Source of the DNA: a virus
DNA: 30,074 nt
Virus record (IMG/VR): IMGVR_UViG_3300005068_000007
Span: 1-30,074 of that record
Strand: one strand, 5' to 3'
Position numbers and translations under genes: made by a program. A model generated the notes under the pieces. That model did not search any database. It was not told the origin of the DNA and saw nothing but the letters and a program-made list of their open reading frames with translations. Within the stretch, counting starts at the first letter, position 1. Every line of letters starts with the position of its first letter. Shown one piece after another: positions 20,528-28,789 of this stretch.

Positions 20528-20747
20528 TGTCAATCCTCCTGCACTTATCTACGCCATAGGCTACCGAAAGGCCACAACCATTGTCCCACTTCACCATGAT
20601 TGAACCAATATCATCTACACCAATAACGGTTCCTTTTGTTCCAGTTGGTGGTGCCTGTATGTCCTCCATCTGTATAAGTTCAACCCGTGTTCCCGTAGGA
20701 TACTCCTTGCGGATTTTCTGCACAATTTCTTTATTTGGAAATCTCAT
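20511..20747 (-). CDS. DUF4314 small phage protein
   Basis: A 78-aa protein of the DUF4314 family. The sequence IRKEYPTGTRVELIQMEDIQ, then PPTGTKGTVIGVDDIGSIMV and WDNGCGLSVAYGVD, predicts a small SH3-like beta barrel, perhaps binding nucleic acid or another protein. The ATG at 20747 follows AGGGGGTG; the GTG three codons earlier lies inside that ribosome site. It overlaps the genes on both sides by 17 bases. Confidence 0.8.
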   Translation of the reverse strand: MRFPNKEIVQKIRKEYPTGTRVELIQMEDIQAPPTGTKGTVIGVDDIGSIMVKWDNGCGLSVAYGVDKCRRIDNESKN

Positions 20748-21471
20748 TTTTGGCACCCCCTTTGAAAGCTGATGAACCTGTGAAATTTTTGAGTAGAATC
20801 TTTCGCTCTACTTTATATTCCTCCCCAATAAATCCCAAGCGTAGGAGCAGGCAACGGAAAGCGTATTTTTCATTTTCTACTTCTTTTTTCTTTGCCTGAA
20901 TGCGTTTTTGTTTTCTTGTCATCTCGCAAAGTGCATAAATCAAATGTGTATAGGCCTTAACCGCATCACTGTCATTAGGTTTAATGGAAAACCAAGGAAA
21001 GGAAATCTTTTCTTCGTCTGTTTCGATGGGTAAGCTATCAATACCCAGTGCTTTTTTAATAAGGCTACCTTTTGCCTCAAGCAAATGCTCTAGGTTTGAA
21101 AAGCTACTATCTGTTAAGGACGTCCGTGGTATTGTCACTGTAAGCCCGAAATCACCGCTCTGTGCGGCTTCTTCCTCTTGATTGGCATTCTCGGTTGACT
21201 TCGTTTTTTCTTCCGCCGTATCAGGCTTTGTTAAATGCTGTACCTTAGCTGTGAACCCTTTCTTTTTCAACTTTTCTAAAAGGTTCTTAATCTCCTCACT
21301 GCCCACTTTGTCATCAAAGAATAGCGTTCCAAAACGGTCGATGGTAAAATAATCTAACTCATACTCAAAGGATGGCACACCTTTGTATATGGCTTTAGCT
21401 CCTGTTATCTCGCTGATTGCGGCAACCATGCTCTTTCGTTCTTTACCTTGTACATTAAATTTTACTTCCAT
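20731..21471 (-). CDS. Conserved phage protein, often labelled virulence-related
   Basis: A 246-aa protein of unknown role. The N-terminal domain (1-80: FNVQGKERKSMVAAISEITG, then YKGVPSFEYELDYFTIDRFG) is followed by an acidic low-complexity linker (80-105) and a C-terminal domain (108-220: FGLTVTIPRTSLTDSSFSNL; SLIKKALGIDSLPIETDEEK). The family is widespread in Firmicutes phages and sometimes called a virulence protein, with no support that I know of. Lys-rich helix 185-200 may bind nucleic acid. AGGAGG lies 8 bases before the ATG. A 120-base gap without clear promoter or terminator separates it from the methyltransferase gene. Confidence 0.7.
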   Translation of the reverse strand: MEVKFNVQGKERKSMVAAISEITGAKAIYKGVPSFEYELDYFTIDRFGTLFFDDKVGSEEIKNLLEKLKKKGFTAKVQHLTKPDTAEEKTKSTENANQEEEAAQSGDFGLTVTIPRTSLTDSSFSNLEHLLEAKGSLIKKALGIDSLPIETDEEKISFPWFSIKPNDSDAVKAYTHLIYALCEMTRKQKRIQAKKKEVENEKYAFRCLLLRLGFIGEEYKVERKILLKNFTGSSAFKGGAKNEISK

Positions 21472-21591: not shown

Positions 21592-22836
21592 CTACCCTTT
21601 CAATTCCTCCTCAATTCCTAATTCATCAAATCTATAAGTAAGACCCTCTCGAACTACTGATACCTGTTCTGAAGAACCCACCTGCTCAATATACCTTTTA
21701 ACAATGACATCGCAGAACTTTTCATCAAGTTCCACCATGTAACAGATGCGTTCCGACTGCTCACAGGCAATCAGCGTAGAACCACTTCCACCAAATGGAT
21801 CAAGAACAATAGTATTACTCATTGAGGAGTTCATAATCGGGTATGCAAGCAAAGCAACAGGTTTCATTGTTGGGTGGTCTCCGTTTTTCTTAGGCTTATC
21901 AAATTCCCAGATGGTTGTTTCTTTCCTTCCTGTGTACCACTGATGCTTTCCTTTTTTCTTCCATCCAAATAATATAGGCTCATGCTTCCACTGATAAGGA
22001 GAACGACCTAGCACAAGGGATTCTTTCTTCCAAATACAGCAACCTGATAAATAAAACCCTGCATCCGAAAATGCTCTACGAAAATTAAGACCTTCCGTGT
22101 CAGCATGAAAGACATAAATCGATGCATCTTCTGCCATCACTTCTTCGGTATTTATAAACGCATCTAAAAGGAAGGTGTAGAATGCATCATTCTCCATATG
22201 GTCATTTTTAATTTTTCCAGCTGACCCTTCATAATTTACATTATAAGGAGGATCGGTAATCACAAGATTTGCTTTTACTCCAGCCATAAGGTTATCAAAG
22301 GTATCCTTCTTCGTAGAATCACCGCAAACAAGTCTATGTCTGCCAAGCGTCCACACATCTCCAAGTTTAGAAAATACAGGCTTTTTAAGTTCCGCATCCA
22401 CATCAAAGTCATCATCGTGAATACCATCTTTTATTGTATCCTTAAAAAGATCATCTAGTTCTTCTGGTTCAAAGCCAGTAAGAGATACATCAAAATCAGC
22501 ACCTTGCAGATCTGAAATCAAAAGAGCCAATTTATCTTTATCCCAATCACCACTGATTTTATTTAAAGCAACATTGAGCGCCTTTTCCTTTTCTTCCGAC
22601 AGTTCCACTACCACGCACTCAACTTCAGTAATATTCATATCAATAAGCACCTTTAATCTTTGATGCCCACCAACAACACGGCCGGTCACCTTATTCCAGA
22701 TAACCGGATCTACATAGCCAAATTGCTCAATGGAGCGTTTTAGCTTTTCATATTCTGAATCCCCTGGCTTTAAATCCTTACGGGGATTGTAATCAGCAGG
22801 CAGTAAATCTATTGTATTCTTTTTCTCAATTAACAT
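21592..22836 (-). CDS. ParB-like nuclease domain fused to DNA N4/N6 methyltransferase
   Basis: A 414-aa fusion. Residues 1-95 are a ParB/sulfiredoxin-like domain with YNPRKDLKPGD and the VVGGHQR box at 54-60. Residues 160-400 are an amino-methyltransferase with TDPPY at 194-198 (catalytic) before DPFGGSGST at 346-354 (AdoMet binding), so it is a beta-class enzyme. It probably methylates adenine or cytosine in phage DNA, protecting it from host restriction or marking packaging sites; the target sequence cannot be read from the gene. No partner endonuclease is seen. It starts 2 bases after the small terminase stop, with AGGAAAGG just upstream, so it belongs to the packaging operon. Confidence 0.9.
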   Translation of the reverse strand: MLIEKKNTIDLLPADYNPRKDLKPGDSEYEKLKRSIEQFGYVDPVIWNKVTGRVVGGHQRLKVLIDMNITEVECVVVELSEEKEKALNVALNKISGDWDKDKLALLISDLQGADFDVSLTGFEPEELDDLFKDTIKDGIHDDDFDVDAELKKPVFSKLGDVWTLGRHRLVCGDSTKKDTFDNLMAGVKANLVITDPPYNVNYEGSAGKIKNDHMENDAFYTFLLDAFINTEEVMAEDASIYVFHADTEGLNFRRAFSDAGFYLSGCCIWKKESLVLGRSPYQWKHEPILFGWKKKGKHQWYTGRKETTIWEFDKPKKNGDHPTMKPVALLAYPIMNSSMSNTIVLDPFGGSGSTLIACEQSERICYMVELDEKFCDVIVKRYIEQVGSSEQVSVVREGLTYRFDELGIEEELKG

Positions 22837-22838
22837 CT

Positions 22839-23378
22839 TTATCTTCCTTTCCTAGTAGATAAGAGCCGCTCCATTAAGTTATCTTGTGGTGTCATACCAC
22901 CATATTCCACTGAGCAATTTTCCTTTACAATCTGGTAAATCTGATACCAAGTCTGGTTTACCTGTTTCATGTAAGTCTGACTCATTGAAACATAAGGAGA
23001 AGCTATAGCATTGCCGGTGGTCGGATGTTTTGCTAGAAACCCGTATTCTGAGATACACTCTTCGCATTGAATCCAACGTGAAACGCTCATGGCATACTGT
23101 TCAATCAGCTGGTTGTTTACTAACATTTCACAGCCTCGTTCTTTTAGCCACTGCCATGTTTCCTTGTAGATATCCTCAGCACACAAATCTTTGCCATTTT
23201 TCTGCTCAGCTTTTAAGTATTCTTTTATAGGTGGTACATCTGCACCTTCAATTTCTGTAGGTTCAGGTAAAACCATCGTTCCATTTACTTTACCATTAGC
23301 TATTTTATCTGTCAGAGCCTTAGATTTTCTTCCGGCACCAACACGCTGTCCTCCACGATTTGTGCCGTCTTTTGCCAA
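22839..23378 (-). CDS. Terminase small subunit, P27-like
   Basis: A 179-aa DNA-recognition subunit of the packaging motor. The N-terminus (NRGGQRVGAGRKSKALTDKI) is the basic GGxRxGAGRK opening common to P27-type small terminases, followed by a helical core (IYKETWQWLKERGCEMLVNN; YAMSVSRWIQCEECISEYG) and an oligomerisation helix. The start is TTG at 23378 with a modest AGGTG site; the first ATG lies well inside the conserved region. The HNH nuclease and candidate cos region lie directly upstream. The large subunit is unusually far away, about 2.8 kb downstream behind five other genes. Confidence 0.85.
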   Translation of the reverse strand: MAKDGTNRGGQRVGAGRKSKALTDKIANGKVNGTMVLPEPTEIEGADVPPIKEYLKAEQKNGKDLCAEDIYKETWQWLKERGCEMLVNNQLIEQYAMSVSRWIQCEECISEYGFLAKHPTTGNAIASPYVSMSQTYMKQVNQTWYQIYQIVKENCSVEYGGMTPQDNLMERLLSTRKGR

Positions 23379-23497
23379 TTGTTCACACCTACTTTCTTTT
23401 GCAGGGGTTTATACCCCCTTTGATTTCTGATTTTTGCACACAAGACCCCAGGCCGTTGCCCAGCATAAAAGGTGTAGAGATTAAGATCCCCCCTGGA
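23379..23497 (-). other. Candidate cos (packaging) region
   Basis: A 119-base non-coding stretch between HNH nuclease and small terminase. It contains two G/C-run inverted repeats unlike the rest of the window: GATCC-CCCCT-GGATC at 23485-23499 and GGGG-TTTATA-CCCC at 23404-23417, with GGCCGTTGCCC between. HNH-terminase phages cut cos near this position, so this is a reasonable cos candidate. The cut site itself cannot be placed from sequence alone. Confidence 0.45.
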
Positions 23498-23857
23498 TCA
23501 CTTACGAATCTGCCTATCACCTAATTCAAAATGAATTTTATTGTGACATGATTTACAAAGGGACATTAAATTACTTTTGTCATGCGTTCCGCCTTGTGAT
23601 ATGGGAAGGATATGATGAACCTCTTCCGTTGGCGTCAGCCGTCCTTCTTTCAAACACATCTCACACAAGGGATGTTCTAAAACATAACGATCACGAATTC
23701 TTTTCCACGCCCTGCCATACTTTTTGTTCACATCTTTAGAGCGTTCATACTTGTCATACTTTCTTCTTTCCTGCGCCTTATGCTCTTCACAGTACTGTCC
23801 CTCGGTTAAATTGGGGCATCCTGGATAACTACATGGACGCATTGGTTTCTTTGGCAC
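23498..23857 (-). CDS. HNH endonuclease of packaging module
   Basis: A 119-aa nuclease that works with terminase in cos cleavage in many HK97-like phages. The HNH core is complete: EVHHILPISQGGTHDKSN with H81, H82 and N96, then H105/H109, framed by zinc pairs C65-x2-C68 and C101-x2-C104. An extra N-terminal cysteine cluster (CSYPGCPN, YCEEH) is present. I chose GTG at 23857, 7 bases after GGAGG; the frame runs open to 24007, but the extra 50 residues lie in the promoter and repeat region and look non-coding. It is the first gene behind the proposed late promoter. Confidence 0.9.
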   Translation of the reverse strand: MPKKPMRPCSYPGCPNLTEGQYCEEHKAQERRKYDKYERSKDVNKKYGRAWKRIRDRYVLEHPLCEMCLKEGRLTPTEEVHHILPISQGGTHDKSNLMSLCKSCHNKIHFELGDRQIRK

Positions 23858-23880
23858 TTTGCCACCTCCATTTTTTGCAT

Positions 23881-23915
23881 AGAAAAAGCCCCACAGGATT
23901 GCTCCCGCAAGGCTT
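23881..23915 (-). terminator. Leader hairpin before HNH gene, possible attenuator
   Basis: On the minus strand AAGCC...GGCTT encloses a small TTGC-GGGA-GCAA hairpin and an 8-base bulge, ending in a T-run (GGGGCTTTTTCT). It lies between the proposed late promoter and the first late gene. It could be an attenuator, a transcript-stabilising hairpin or an antitermination target; stem quality is moderate. Confidence 0.35.
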
Positions 23916-23936
23916 GCCTCTCTTAGTCTTTTGCTA

Positions 23937-23942
23937 ATTATA
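23937..23942 (-). promoter_or_regulatory. Candidate late promoter -10 box (TATAAT)
   Basis: A perfect TATAAT on the minus strand, about 80 bases before the HNH gene. The -35 position (23960-23965) reads CCACAG, unlike TTGACA, so the promoter should need an activator. Three tandem repeats lie at about -41 to -70 from the expected start site. Confidence 0.6.
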
Positions 23943-23970
23943 CTATAACATAAAATGGACTGTGGTGTCT

Positions 23971-24007
23971 TGTTGCAAAGTGTTGCAAAGTGTTGCAAAA
24001 CGTGCAA
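23971..24007 (-). repeat. Three tandem 10-bp repeats, likely activator sites
   Basis: On the plus strand TGTTGCAAAG, TGTTGCAAAG and TGTTGCAAAA stand end to end (23971-24000), with a decayed fourth TGCAA at 24003-24007. The 10-bp pitch is one helical turn, so bound proteins would line up on one DNA face. They sit just behind the stop codon of the sigma-like regulator gene. Confidence 0.75.
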
Positions 24008-24008
24008 G

Positions 24009-24437
24009 TTATATCTTTATAGGGTTATCCGGCAAAGCCAAATGCTTAATTGCTGTATTATGCCATCGATATATGGTTGTCCTATCCGCATTTAATTCAT
24101 TCCCAATTTGTTCCCATGTAAGTTCAAGTACATAACGGTACCGAAGCACCATGCGTTCATCTGTATCAGCAACTCCGTTAATGACCTCACGTATCTGTTC
24201 CTTCAATGCAACAAGAGTATCTACTTCTACATTAATTTTATCCTCCAAATCCATAATTCGCTCTAGGCACTTTACAAAAGGCGCATCCGTATTTCTCGAA
24301 GTCATAACCCGTTCCTTATCATATCTTGGTGAAGAAACGCTGCCTGCCATTTCACGAAGCCTGTCCATTTCCTCTATGTTTGACTGTATCCTTTTATCAA
24401 GCCGATACGCCTGATGTAAATACTCTTTTACTTTCAT
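24009..24437 (-). CDS. Sigma-70 region 4-like late transcription regulator
   Basis: A 142-aa DNA-binding protein. Residues 1-85 are helical and charged with coiled-coil character; residues 92-134 form a region 4-like helix-turn-helix (DERMVLRYRYVLELTWEQIG, then LNADRTTIYRWHNTAIKHL). Such proteins (DUF1492, ArpU, RinA-like groups) end the early block of many Firmicutes phages and switch on late genes. Here the gene sits directly before tandem 10-bp repeats and a -35-less TATAAT box, which fits that role well. GGAGG precedes the ATG by 10 bases, and it overlaps the upstream gene by ATGA. DNA target is inferred from position. Confidence 0.8.
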   Translation of the reverse strand: MKVKEYLHQAYRLDKRIQSNIEEMDRLREMAGSVSSPRYDKERVMTSRNTDAPFVKCLERIMDLEDKINVEVDTLVALKEQIREVINGVADTDERMVLRYRYVLELTWEQIGNELNADRTTIYRWHNTAIKHLALPDNPIKI

Positions 24438-24658
24438 TTAGCATTTACCTCCATTCTTAGCTTTTTCATTAAGAAATCTCCATCAACAGAGGTAAGTTCT
24501 CTATACCAAGCAGAGTGGAAGAACCTCTCCACCTCAATTATGGTGTGCTTTGCATCCTTATTTTTAGGATTCCTTTTTAATTTTTTTATGGCCTCTCTAT
24601 AATCCTTAACCGACTGTAGAATAATTGCATTGGCTAATACCTCCATAGGCTCTGTCAT
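24434..24658 (-). CDS. Small conserved phage protein
   Basis: A 74-aa helical protein of unknown function. The N-terminal AIILQSVKDYREAIKKLKR and later EVERFFHSAWYRELTSVDG are typical of a small family placed between the SNF2 helicase and the late regulator in related phages. GGAGG lies 7 bases before the ATG. It overlaps both neighbours by ATGA, so it is part of a tightly coupled string. Confidence 0.7.
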   Translation of the reverse strand: MTEPMEVLANAIILQSVKDYREAIKKLKRNPKNKDAKHTIIEVERFFHSAWYRELTSVDGDFLMKKLRMEVNAK

Positions 24659-26012
24659 CGCACCACCTCCAGCTTTGCTTTTACCGCATTGATAAGTGCC
24701 GTCTGCGTTTTCTCTTTCTTAGAAAGGGCTTTCATAACATCTTCATCAATAGTGCCTTTCGTAATAATATGGTGAATAACAACTGTATCTTTTTGTCCTT
24801 GTCTATAAAGCCTAGCATTTGTCTGTTGATACAACTCCAATGACCAAGTAAGGCCAAACCATATAAGAGTAGATCCTCCACTTTGAAGGTTTAATCCATG
24901 TCCTGCCGATGCAGGATGAATCACAGCAACTGGAATATTTCCCTTATTCCAATCTTCAATATCTTTCGATGATTTTATCTGTCTTACTTGAAATCTTTTT
25001 TGTATACGCTCCAAATCGTGCCTATACCAGTAAGCTACAAGTACGGGTTTCCCATTAGCTCCTTCAATCAAATCCTCCAGGGCATCAAGTTTTCTGTCGT
25101 GAATATGATGAGACTTATTATCTTCATCATAAACAGCACCATTTGCCATCTGCAAAAGTTTTCCTGAAAGAACTGCAGCATTGACCGCATCAATTTCCTC
25201 TCCTTTAACGTTTGCCACCATGTCATCACGAAAGGTTGAGTAAATATCCCATTCTTTATCATCAAGGTATACCGGTACTTCATTTATCACGCATTTTGGC
25301 ATTTTCAAATAGTCGCAAGATTTCATGGAAATGGTAATATCAGAAATTTGTTTATATATCTTTTCTTCAGCACCTGGAAGTGGCTTATATGAAAAAATCA
25401 TCTGAGCATTTCGTTTGTCTGGACAAAAGAAAGTATTACGGTAGTGGGTGATGTACCTTCCAAGCCTTTGACCCAAATCAAGGATTCGAAACTCTGCCCA
25501 TAAATCCATCAATCCATTTGATGATGGTGTTCCAGTAAGTCCTACTATTCTTTTTACTTTAGCCCTTATCTTTAAAAGACTTTTGAATCGCTTTGCACCA
25601 TAGGATTTAAATGACGATAACTCATCAATAACAACCATATCAAAATCAAAGGGAATACCACTTTTGTTAACCAACCAATCTACATTTTCTCGATTGATAA
25701 TATAAACGGTAGCTCTTTTCATAAGTGCTGCTATTCGCTCTTTCTCGCTACCTACTGCAACCGAATAGGATAGCCCTTTTAAGTGGTCCCATTTTTTGAT
25801 TTCAGCAGGCCATGTAGATTTACATACACGCAAAGGTCCTATTACAAGCACTTTTCTTATTTCAAATTGGTCAAGACATAGGTCGAAGATTGCAGACAAT
25901 GTAATAATTGTCTTACTCAACCGAGGCCCATATCAAGAAATATTGCAGAAGCAGGCTTTTCTTCTATAAAATCAATCGCATACTGCTGATAATCATGTGG
26001 TATGAACTTCAT
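24655..26012 (-). pseudogene. SNF2 family helicase, broken at Walker A by a 5-base insertion
   Basis: Phage SNF2 ATPase used in replication or recombination, expected about 450 aa. Reading from the ATG at 26012 gives 31 residues (MKFIPHDYQQYAIDFIEEKP, then ASAIFLDMGLG) and then TGA at 25919-25917. The remaining protein continues in another frame from a TTG at 25920: SKTIITLSAIF and so on, 421 aa, with DELSSF (motif II), GLTGTPSSNG (motif III) and ARLYRQGQKD (motif VI) intact. Removing TTGAG (25916-25920) restores DMGLGKTIITLS. The split falls between G and K of Walker A, so the larger part alone should not bind ATP normally. The stop and the TTG overlap (TTGA), so re-initiation is possible but function is doubtful. 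Sequence error is the alternative. Confidence 0.85.
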
Positions 26013-26296
26013 TTGGCATCACCTCCAATCTCTCGTAACACTTCATCTATTTGATCCACCCCATCAATGCAGTAAACCAAAAATCCAAGTGATTCTAACT
26101 GCCTTTTTCGCTTTACTTGCAGTGGTCTCATCTTTTTACCTGTAGCTTTTAATTCAACAAAAGCAAACTTTCCATTAGGTAAAAGAACTAGTCGATCTGG
26201 CACCCCATTTAAACCTGGACTTACAAACTTTGGTGACATCCCATGTCTTTTCTTTACCGCTGCCACAAGTTTTTGCTCTATATATTTTTCTGTCAT
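26009..26296 (-). CDS. VRR-NUC domain nuclease
   Basis: A 95-aa stand-alone VRR-NUC nuclease of the PD-(D/E)XK group, related to the nuclease part of FAN1 and found with phage SNF2 helicases; it probably cuts branched DNA. Visible are E7 in the first helix, GVPDRLVLL with the metal-binding D, FVELKATG with E and K, and RPLQVKRKRQLESLGF. AGGAGG lies close to the ATG. It overlaps the SNF2 start by ATGA, linking the two products. Confidence 0.9.
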   Translation of the reverse strand: MTEKYIEQKLVAAVKKRHGMSPKFVSPGLNGVPDRLVLLPNGKFAFVELKATGKKMRPLQVKRKRQLESLGFLVYCIDGVDQIDEVLREIGGDAK

Positions 26297-26446
26297 ATAT
26301 TCCTCCTATTTGACACAAGAAACACAACTATCACAACGATTCCCTATATATACTTACGCGCGTGCACACTCACAGGATTTAACTATTCCTTTTATAAAAA
26401 AAGCATTTTGAATATAAGGAAAAAAGTTGTGTTGTGTGTGTCACTC
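26297..26446. other. 150-base structured gap between VapE and VRR-NUC genes
   Basis: The longest non-coding gap of the early block. Two 17-base arms, 26312-26328 and 26426-26442, are inverted copies of each other at 14 of 17 positions (differences only at the three central bases) and enclose 97 bases holding AT-rich tracts, TATATATA and a CGCGCGTGCAC patch. It may be a replication origin, a site bound by the VapE protein, or an RNA stem. No promoter or ORF is evident. Confidence 0.55.
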
Positions 26447-28789
26447 CTATATCATTTTTTGGTATAATCGCTGTCTTCCGTAAATGGGCAAACGCTTGAT
26501 ATTAGTGGTTCGCTCCCATCCTGAAATCTGAGCCATAAGTGCAGCAATTTGATAACTATCCGTAGCTTTTAAGTCAGACAGGCTATGATTTAAGCACTCA
26601 CACCATATCTCTGCATTGCTTACAGCGTTTCGTGCAATACTGCCTGTATGCTCTCCACCGCCAAACTCACTGCCATTTAAGTAATTGCGACGGGCAAATA
26701 AATCCATTTCATTCCAATCAGCAGGTAGGAGTGTATTAAGATACTCTTCCACCATACCGACACGCTCATCACTTTCCATTGCGCCTTTTTGTGCTTTTTC
26801 GGCTTCTTCTAAAACATCACCTTCAAGGTACAACTTTTCGCCAGACTTCCATATTTCTTTTGCCTCTGCCCAAAACTGTTGCCTATATTCTTCAGTAAAG
26901 TTCCATCTCTTTTTCTGCTTTCTTTGATGTAGCTTAATAATCCAAAAACGACGATTACCCGTAATATCACGGAGATATCCACGCTCACCATTAACTGTTG
27001 CAATAATGATACACTGTCTTGGATGACTTTCCACAACCCTACCGTAAGACGGACGATATTTATCATCAGATGTTGATAGAAAAGCTTTAACCTTTTCTAT
27101 ATCAGCTTTCCTCATACCAGCAAGTTCTCCAATTTCAACTACCCAAAATCCCTGTAATTTTTCTGCTCCCGATTTATCATCCATATCTGTAAGGGACAGT
27201 GTTTCAGAATAGTAATCCGCCGTTACAAGGTCTTTAACAATCGTACTTTTACCAATACCTTGATCACCATCAAGCACTGGAACGCAATCAAATTTAATTC
27301 CTGGAACATAGATACGAGCAACTGCAGCTGCAAATATTTTTCTTGTCACAGTTCTTATATAATCTGTATCATCAGCCTGCAGATATTTGATAAAAACATT
27401 CTCTACACGCTTAATACCATCCCAATTAGGCAAGGCATCGAGATAATCTCTTACAGGATGGAAGTGCCTGTCGTCAGTGACCTTGGTAAATGCCACATCG
27501 TGGTTTCGGCTTGAAAATGCAAGATATCTGATATCAATAATAGATTTTAGCTGTGCCGTATCGGCATCTCTCCAAAACACATTACCCTCCGGTCTTTCCC
27601 ATGGGATAGGCCCTGTGATTTGAATTCGATTGGCCAATTCGTTATATGCGAAGTTTGCAAAATCGGAATCATTGTTAAGAATCAAGTTAAGATTATATAC
27701 ACTGTTCTCCAATATCTGACTGCGAGGCTGATATTTAAGCTTTGTTTTCCAGTCATCACCACTTGCCAAAAAATCTTCTTTTGCTTCTGCAAGCCGCTCA
27801 TTGGTAATAAGCAACTTGACCTTATCATCATTCATTACGAACTCACACATAGCCTTGTACGATTTTTTATCATCATCGTTTCCAAACTTATGGATACGAA
27901 CAAGATCAAAAGCATTTAAAAGCTGACTACAGGCTGGGTCTGATGCATGATGGCTATAAGAAAACTTATCATCATAAATTTGCACGCCTGGCATAGAGTC
28001 TGAATCAATAAAATCATATCTATTTGGATTTTCTGTAGGCGTATAAACATCAGAAAGAAAAGTTCCCATAACGTCTGTTATGGAATAAGCACGACAGAAT
28101 GCTCCTACTACACCTTCTTTGGCAATAGGGTCATCTTGTTTCTTACCTTCATATGTTTTAGCCACGCTCTCACGAGATGATGTGGGCAAAAGTGAGCAGT
28201 CTTTCCAATTTGGATGAGCTGCAAGAAATATATCTGGGTCAAGCCACTTTCCATCGACACGCTTAAAAATATACTCGCCGTTTGACGGGCTAGTCGGCCA
28301 ATACATCAGCTGATTAGGCTGATAGGAGCATTCATCAAATTGGTCGATACCCCATTCATCTGCAAAATATCTCGCAATAGCTACATACTCATCCGATGTA
28401 ACGTCACGGGTCATAGGAATAATAATACGGACCCTTGGCGCTTCTGGTATATGTCCATGTGTTGTATATAGGACTGCTGCATATTTACATTCACTGCAAA
28501 ATTTATCAATAAAGCCTACCTCAGCATGATCAACATCAGTAGTAAGCATAGAACGGAAAACAACATTTTCTCGCTTTCTGCGATTGCTTTTAAGCTGACC
28601 GCCAACATAACCACCTTTATCCTTTGTATTGTCACGCTTAGCTTTAGAAAGTTTTGGGTATTCCTGCACCGTTTCTGTTGTTCGGATAGTGGTTTTAAGT
28701 TTTTCACATAAATCATCAAAAGTAATCGTCTTGTTTGACCAGATCTTTGCTTTGCAGCTGTTACCATAGGCAATAGCTAACTTACGCAT
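26447..28789 (-). CDS. VapE-type primase-helicase
   Basis: A 780-aa replication protein. Residues about 75-175 look like an archaeo-eukaryotic primase domain (MLTTDVDHAEVGF with D85 and D87; then APRVRIIIPMTRDV). Residues 440-640 are the virulence-associated E ATPase with Walker A DGDQGIGKST (507-516), Walker B FWVVEIGELAGM (548-559) and the IATVNGERGYLRDITGNRRF segment. Together these would prime and unwind phage DNA. The name VapE comes from a virulence-associated island and implies no virulence. ATG at 28789 follows GGAGG by 8 bases; it overlaps the DUF4406 gene by 8 bases (ATGCGTAA). Confidence 0.92.
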   Translation of the reverse strand: MRKLAIAYGNSCKAKIWSNKTITFDDLCEKLKTTIRTTETVQEYPKLSKAKRDNTKDKGGYVGGQLKSNRRKRENVVFRSMLTTDVDHAEVGFIDKFCSECKYAAVLYTTHGHIPEAPRVRIIIPMTRDVTSDEYVAIARYFADEWGIDQFDECSYQPNQLMYWPTSPSNGEYIFKRVDGKWLDPDIFLAAHPNWKDCSLLPTSSRESVAKTYEGKKQDDPIAKEGVVGAFCRAYSITDVMGTFLSDVYTPTENPNRYDFIDSDSMPGVQIYDDKFSYSHHASDPACSQLLNAFDLVRIHKFGNDDDKKSYKAMCEFVMNDDKVKLLITNERLAEAKEDFLASGDDWKTKLKYQPRSQILENSVYNLNLILNNDSDFANFAYNELANRIQITGPIPWERPEGNVFWRDADTAQLKSIIDIRYLAFSSRNHDVAFTKVTDDRHFHPVRDYLDALPNWDGIKRVENVFIKYLQADDTDYIRTVTRKIFAAAVARIYVPGIKFDCVPVLDGDQGIGKSTIVKDLVTADYYSETLSLTDMDDKSGAEKLQGFWVVEIGELAGMRKADIEKVKAFLSTSDDKYRPSYGRVVESHPRQCIIIATVNGERGYLRDITGNRRFWIIKLHQRKQKKRWNFTEEYRQQFWAEAKEIWKSGEKLYLEGDVLEEAEKAQKGAMESDERVGMVEEYLNTLLPADWNEMDLFARRNYLNGSEFGGGEHTGSIARNAVSNAEIWCECLNHSLSDLKATDSYQIAALMAQISGWERTTNIKRLPIYGRQRLYQKMI

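Follow-up and report, generated by a model that had tools for sequence, protein, structure and literature searches.

A probable self-contained late switch of the Ltr/Alt kind in a viral genome, with tandem repeats that covary with the recognition helix of the adjoining regulator

Introduction

What turns on the late genes of a phage when a regulator gene, an array of short tandem repeats and a promoter lacking a −35 box directly follow one another? This question is raised by a stretch of viral DNA of 30,074 nucleotides (IMG/VR record IMGVR_UViG_3300005068_000007, positions 1 to 30,074; hereafter the window). A first-pass annotation, made from the sequence alone, had proposed that the regulator, a protein resembling sigma region 4, binds the repeats and turns on all late genes. 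Ltr proteins generally bind four imperfect repeats (PMC13123087), and DUF1492 has been equated with the Ltrb family (PMC5601072). On account of its domain, the place of its gene and the layout of its sites, the system in the window is very probably a self-contained late switch of the Ltr/Alt kind.

Organization of the Locus

The regulator gene, the 10-bp tandem array, the TATAAT, a hairpin, and the genes for an HNH endonuclease and the terminase small subunit (TerS) are all carried by the minus strand (Table 1). Gene identities were assigned by scanning 20 window proteins. The regulator gene is preceded by genes for a VapE-type helicase/primase, a VRR-NUC protein, an SNF2-type helicase and a 74-aa protein, and is followed on the same strand by HNH, TerS, methyltransferase, amidoligase-like, TerL, portal, protease, capsid, tail and endolysin genes. 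Because of this flanking order, the gene for the 142-aa protein, placed between the helicase/primase and the HNH-terminase genes, looks like the last early gene, at the border of early and late regions, and we infer that its product regulates the adjoining promoter. The GTG start of the HNH gene was assigned because of a Shine-Dalgarno-like GGAGG at 23869-23865. Between the TerS and TerL genes lie an amidoligase-like gene and a gene for a ParB-domain DNA methyltransferase (window 20731-21471 and 21592-22836).

Table 1. Features of the putative late switch, in promoter orientation from the regulator gene to TerS
Feature	Position in window	Strand	Basis or remark
Late-regulator gene, 142 aa	24009..24437	−	TAA stop at 24011-24009
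Distal site S5, TGCACG, degenerate	24001..24006	−	9 bp from S4, just past stop codon
Site S4, TGCAACA	23991..23997	−	sequence
Site S3, TGCAACA	23981..23987	−	sequence, relatives
Site S2, TGCAACA	23971..23977	−	sequence, relatives
Proximal site S1, CACCACA, degenerate	23961..23967	−	starts 25 bp upstream of TATAAT, over −35 position
Extended −10-like element, TGTTATAGT	23942..23950	−	overlaps TATAAT by one base; conserved
TATAAT, −10 element of late promoter	23937..23942	−	sequence, conservation; expected start about 23930
13-bp hairpin with U-tract, intrinsic-terminator-like	23886..23915	−	about +15 to +45 from 23930
HNH endonuclease gene, first late gene	23498..23857	−	profile matches; GTG start inferred
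Terminase small subunit gene (TerS)	22839..23378	−	profile matches

The Regulator Protein

The 142-aa protein belongs to DUF1492 (Pfam PF07374; 40.7 bits against a gathering cut-off of 21.5) and also matches Sigma70_r4 (25.1 bits, cut-off 24.1). Among PHROG profiles it matches phrog_36, and the Alt-like phrog_2198 matches it weakly (E 2.6e-4). In an AF2 model with a mean pLDDT of 87.3, two long N-terminal helices (H3-33 and H53-87) are predicted to precede a C-terminal HTH like that of sigma region 4, the likely recognition helix being H119-132 (RTTIYRWHN...). Two other families of regulators were considered and rejected, as scores stayed below the curated cut-offs: ArpU (TIGR01637, 18.3 bits vs 43.1) and RinA (TIGR01636, 18.0 bits vs 31.9). 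A sigma factor was also rejected, since Sigma70_r4 was the sole sigma model above its cut-off in Pfam and the rest of the AF2 model consists of the two long helices; there is no region 2, which serves −10 recognition and core binding. The PHROG-type profile scan matched no antiterminator family.

A sequence search for solved structures of relatives gave no convincing match (best E 0.074, RpoD), and Foldseek with the AF2 model gave nothing at E < 0.001, its VIA list holding mainly long-helix proteins that match the N-terminal half. The C-terminal domain superimposes on 1rio_H with an rmsd of 1.8 over 57 columns and a TM of 0.71 of the target, but with an E of 0.41. The fold thus resembles that of sigma-70 region 4 on a −35 element, at weak E-values. 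By eye, R119, T120 and Y123 of the window protein align with R584, E585 and R588 of sigma-70, the residues that read the −35 element. As distinct from sigma-70 region 4, the window protein would act as repeated copies on direct repeats.

Repeat Array and Promoter

The sequence bears out the first-pass description of tandem 10-bp repeats directly past the regulator stop, followed by TATAAT and the HNH-terminase genes. The claim of three repeats and a decayed fourth was right as to the three, which agree at 29 of 30 bases over 23971-24000; beyond these, five sites can be read in all, with both S5 and S1 degenerate. In promoter orientation the unit is TGCAACA. No lag-10 self-match in the window is better than that of the array: 19 of 20 bases agree, whereas 50 dinucleotide shuffles never gave more than 15. 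Within the record the exact 19-mer TTTGCAACACTTTGCAACA is confined to the array, in two overlapping matches. Single words like TGTTGCAAAG are not enriched (48 found with at most two mismatches, 47.5 expected), so that the signal is the array and not the word. Among the 52 loci of this repeat class whose −10 is clear, the window has 66 nt from stop to TATAAT and the other 51 have 56-59 nt; the window array is one unit longer than is usual for its repeat class.

No good −35 hexamer was found upstream of TATAAT, as the first-pass annotation had stated. The sole match there, AAGACA-18-TATAGT, agrees at 9 of 12 bases, and a sigma70 promoter scan of 22000-26500 returned nothing beyond 9/12 matches (6 found vs 12.7 in shuffles). 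The late promoter should therefore be weak unaided.

Homologs were gathered from 60 viral loci, 24 viral stretches with the exact 19-mer, 8 phage records, 79 genome loci (the best of 131), 80 viral loci (the best of 305), 35 of them new, and 80 loci obtained with a more divergent query (the best of 516), several of these on contigs already included. The 278 regulator places found, several of which share a contig, gave 198 distinct pairs of regulator and downstream DNA in which the protein had 120 aa or more and no unread residue and was followed by 150 nt or more. From the covariation set, 34 of the 198 pairs were excluded for want of a clear TATAAT-type match, 21 of them being of the HRIH type (28 in all), and the remaining 164 were condensed into 65 representatives below 92% identity.

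Near the stop, 151 of the 198 pairs have a match of 6 or more of 7 bases at lag 10, vs 10 of 198 coding control stretches; with 47 of the 198 loci failing this criterion, the array is not universal. Among the representatives, lag 10 stands alone, as expected for the one-turn pitch noted earlier: 66% of the 65 have a 7-mer match of at least 6/7 at this lag in the array region, vs at most 17% at any other lag from 5 to 18. The relatives' array mostly has four sites, read as spaced 9-10-10, and the five sites in the window and four in most relatives agree with the roughly four imperfect direct repeats expected upstream of an Ltr-dependent late promoter. Site position is likewise locked to the promoter, in line with the first-pass proposal of a fixed position before a −35-less promoter. 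A recognizable unit stands in register 45 and/or 35 bp before TATAAT in 60 of the 65 representatives, and in most of them the proximal site lies 25 bp before TATAAT regardless of repeat sequence, with exceptions seen by eye in L052, L146, L155, L209, L215 and L217. In most of the TGCAACA class, the equivalent of S1 is TACCACA or similar. Two of 28 representatives with R120 and R123 have no unit in register, and in the paralogues L053, L059 and L254 the array is absent and another gene follows.

The promoter itself is also conserved. TGnTA, starting eight bases upstream of TATAAT, is nearly invariant in the 65 representatives (95, 95, 98 and 98% per base), as is CAGC after TATAAT (91-97% per base). 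In the window (23937-23950) and its relatives, TGnTAnnnT and TATAAT form two overlapping −10-like elements that share one T, both conserved. Because the extended element is conserved too, transcription could start near 23930 or near 23935, and either of the two could be the functional −10. The −10 hexamer of TP901-1 follows the TGG of its last repeat by 27 bp, a distance closer to the value for TATAAT (25 bp) than to that for the extended element (20 bp).

Covariation of Recognition Helix and Repeats

The first-pass annotation had pointed to co-variation of the HTH and the repeats in relatives as a check on binding, and it is present across the 65 non-redundant pairs. Repeat units and helices were seen in the following combinations: TGCAACA with RTTx(Y/W)R, TGTCC with (A/S/P/E)RTxRR, T(G/A)AGCA with KSTxRR, mixed TACCC/TGCCC with ESTxRR, and TGGCACA-like units with RTVHRIH. 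Others are TGGTACA with RTTIHR (one locus) and TGGCATG with VRTVIR (a Gardnerella phage). With site classes defined by us after inspection of the data, the three main ones pair without exception: TGTCC/TGCCC with R120 and R123 (26/26), TGCAA with Y or W at 123 (16/16), and T(G/A)AGC with K119 and S120 (11/11).

By mutual information with 14 site columns, the top four of the 142 protein columns are R119, T120, Y123 and N127, both raw and after APC, and all four lie on the predicted recognition helix. Summed over the sites, R119 reaches 6.57, whereas no protein column exceeds 2.67 over 39 control DNA columns; the latter give a different ranking of protein columns and lower sums. Helix similarity and site similarity have a partial correlation of 0.757, given N-terminal and other C-terminal identity, a value reached in none of 1000 free and none of 1000 within-cluster permutations.

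One could object that helix and repeats match merely because they lie within about 100 bp of each other and are inherited together. The two do lie close together, and site similarity also shows a correlation of 0.32 with N-terminal identity. We nevertheless hold this explanation to be highly improbable: promoter and leader flanks, which are equally close, have a partial correlation of only 0.050 with the helix; other C-terminal residues reach just 0.12 with the sites; and the four recognition-helix positions stand out while their neighbors do not. Comparisons of close relatives agree. Among pairs with N-terminal identities of at least 0.85, which are not independent and from which 24 loci without an assigned class were omitted, the site class is equal in 847 and unequal in 3 when residues 119, 120 and 123 are alike, and equal in 0 and unequal in 24 when they are unlike. 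At lower N-terminal identity many residue-different pairs share a class (417 of 5081 at 0.55-0.65, for example), because TGTCC is found with any of A, S, P and E at 119. A natural swap is seen most clearly between L093 and the loci L099, L181 and L183, whose N-termini are 99% identical and whose −10, leader and hairpin are near-identical: the former combines RTTVYRWHN with TGCAACA, the latter KSTIRRWHG with TGAGCA. A sign test on the N-terminal tree points in the right direction, all four supported pairs agreeing for TGCAA and all four for AGC (p 0.125 in both cases), but these pairs, with two more for TCC, are too few for significance.

A Second Protein Family Beside the Same Repeats

The exact 19-mer occurs in 24 viral contigs, 15 of which have a homolog of the window protein upstream. 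In seven others (L061, L064, L065, L071, L074, L080 and L082, the DNA of L074 and L080 being the same as that of L071 and L061, respectively), a different gene ends just before the array. In the two of these that were scanned, L082 and L064, this gene matches phrog_6836, which PHROG lists as of unknown function, and terminase genes lie behind it; Pfam DUF6362 stayed below its cut-off. Together with L299-L311, these loci make up a phrog_6836-type set of which 12 members were aligned. Repeats follow the stop in 11 of the 12, irregularly spaced in L300-L302. Eight members combine a C-terminal helix of RTTLW, RTSLW, RSTLW or RITLF with TGCAACA repeats and three combine RATL(L/F) with TGCGACA; L306, with RATLW, has no repeats behind its stop. 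An exact search for the TGCGACA pair TGCGACACTTTGCGACA returned seven contigs, three with the phrog_6836 family and four without such a gene.

The second family went undetected by tblastn with the window protein (P0001), so the recurrence of the pairing in it also speaks against joint inheritance. A profile comparison aligns the two families over the HTH only, with the RTT motifs close together (probability 29%, E 6e-4), and in AF2 models the last helix begins at the same arginine in both, R119 and R116. The phrog_6836 family was found by exact DNA search, so that DNA alone led a second time to the helix-repeat pairing. This family may comprise further late activators that use the same helix code, which would suggest a role for phrog_6836.

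Taken with the covariation and the natural swap, the second family makes it very likely that the regulator binds the adjoining repeats, and the claim that it reads them is thus strongly supported at the sequence level. It is also likely that the regulator activates the late genes, by a mechanism that may be pictured as follows. The last early gene would encode a small protein whose HTH resembles that of sigma region 4; several copies of this protein could sit head-to-tail on one face of the DNA, on the 10-bp direct repeats just past their own gene, with the last copy in the place of the missing −35 box. The bound copies would recruit RNA polymerase, whose host sigma A would contact TATAAT, the overlapping extended −10 or both, and this polymerase would transcribe the HNH, terminase, head, tail and lysis genes. 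The earlier claim that the regulator turns on all late genes fits the order of the downstream genes, all on one strand; activation itself would also require passage of a conserved hairpin.

Alternatively, the array might be a repressing operator, of the regulator or of a host protein, or a replication iteron. A protein on the proximal site, which overlies the −35 position, could keep RNA polymerase out, and two of the 24 contigs with the 19-mer (L066 and L083) have neither type of gene beside the array. There, at L066:678-696 and L083:975-993, a TGCAACA pair lies beside an apparent sigma-70-like promoter on the other strand, perhaps as a repressor operator or by chance. We consider this alternative very unlikely: a promoter with no good −35 box should need help, and position, gene order and the sigma-4-like fold agree with known late activators. 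Because the repeats covary with the phage helix, a host protein in particular is argued against as the binder.

The Hairpin Behind the Promoter

Less expected than the layout, and absent from the first-pass annotation, is the hairpin between the late promoter and the HNH gene. Folding of 23870-23930 gives −23 kcal/mol (z −3.2), and only about 24 nt separate the U-tract from the HNH start in the window. A strict terminator criterion, applied to the 110 nt after TATAAT, is passed by 52 of the 65 representatives, vs 1.8% of shuffles and none of 65 coding windows; most of the 13 that fail still show a hairpin by eye. The hairpin spans a median of 27-57 nt after the first T of TATAAT. In an alignment of 65 rows, pairing at its 13 positions is preserved in 92.2% of cells; 11 of these pairs have changes on both sides, and the covariation score is 0.421 vs at most 0.182 for slid partners.

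The probable role of the hairpin is to terminate the early operon and to keep stray transcription from running on, and the simplest reading is that of an early-operon terminator which late transcription passes through strength or leakage. Under the proposed mechanism, strong late transcription would have to pass the hairpin just after its start. Even so, a hairpin at this place is odd for a model of activation alone, and its conservation raises the question of antitermination in these phages. As at Q-type loci, a putative terminator, judged by sequence and covariation, stands between the late promoter and the late genes. The regulator might serve two locks, recruiting RNA polymerase and then staying with it or altering it to pass the hairpin, much as lambda Q does. 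Also suggestive are −10-like hexamers in the early transcribed region, found in 56 of the 65 representatives vs 17.7 expected from base shuffles. Such hexamers also occur at Q promoters. Here they stand at no single fixed position, in a leader that is A-rich; the protein matches no antiterminator family, and leaky termination or an mRNA-stabilizing 5′ hairpin would also suffice.

Eight Ltr-type records were compared for this feature, P3681, 7201, phi7917 and TP901-1 by folding and the rest by eye. A hairpin with a U-tract lies just past the late promoter of the Streptococcus phages P3681, 7201 and phi7917 (L291:35446-35540, L295:1288-1395 and L294:1336-1422), weaker in 7201 than in the other two. 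The region after the TP901-1 late promoter folds poorly and has no such hairpin, none was seen by eye after the promoter in Javan247, MismyG and K13, and that of Javan573 has no U-tract by eye. On balance we regard a regulator serving both locks as unlikely. The same holds, with similar doubt, for the broader idea of a Q-like antiterminator built on a sigma-4-like fold, which, lined up across the −35 position, would open the promoter, take RNA polymerase past a conserved terminator within the first 50 nt and have its helix-repeat specificity swapped between phages as one short cassette.

Relation to Known Late Activators

The first-pass annotation had suggested that a site layout of this kind beside this protein family may be undescribed. 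That suggestion finds no support, as four direct repeats upstream of a late promoter beside the regulator gene are known for TP901-1 Alt and the Ltr families (PMC13123087). The alt gene of the Lactococcus phage TP901-1 lies directly before the promoter, as in the window, and Alt binds four imperfect direct repeats from −76 to −32 (PMC13123087). In L202 these read as four 11-mers with TGATATACT as −10; thus TP901-1 differs from the window in a pitch of 11 rather than 10 and in its repeat sequence. It also has no terminator-like hairpin at the start, with a tRNA-like sequence further on by eye.

In Staphylococcus phi13, late transcription requires ltr, the TATA box and the repeats, ltr is the last early gene, and packaging, structural and lysis genes lie downstream of the P23 promoter, all as in the window (PMC13123087). 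In contrast to the window, phi13 has an Ltr of family IV and three 18-bp repeats plus a partial one, with the deletion between −107 and −42 (PMC13123087). The Ltrb (DUF1492) of Streptococcus thermophilus cos phages offers a third comparison. P3681, for example, shares with the window the order Ltr-HNH-TerS on its circular record and the hairpin with U-tract after the promoter; unlike the window, P3681 and 7201 show no clear 10-bp array of the TGCAACA type by eye.

The layout itself is thus not new, and the specificity code and the built-in hairpin look like new variations on it. A search of the open literature returned no paper whose title or opening of the abstract deals with a helix-repeat code or a late-promoter hairpin, which is weak evidence of novelty since subscription papers lay outside its coverage. 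The pairings amount to a readable protein-DNA code for a group of phage late activators, in which three or four residues of a single helix go with each of several repeat classes. Because the target adjoins its own gene, promoter choice by Ltr proteins is directly testable with natural matched and mismatched pairs, and the code could supply orthogonal promoter systems for Clostridia. Lastly, the name 'Heliusvirales' appears in the taxonomy line of related phage records.
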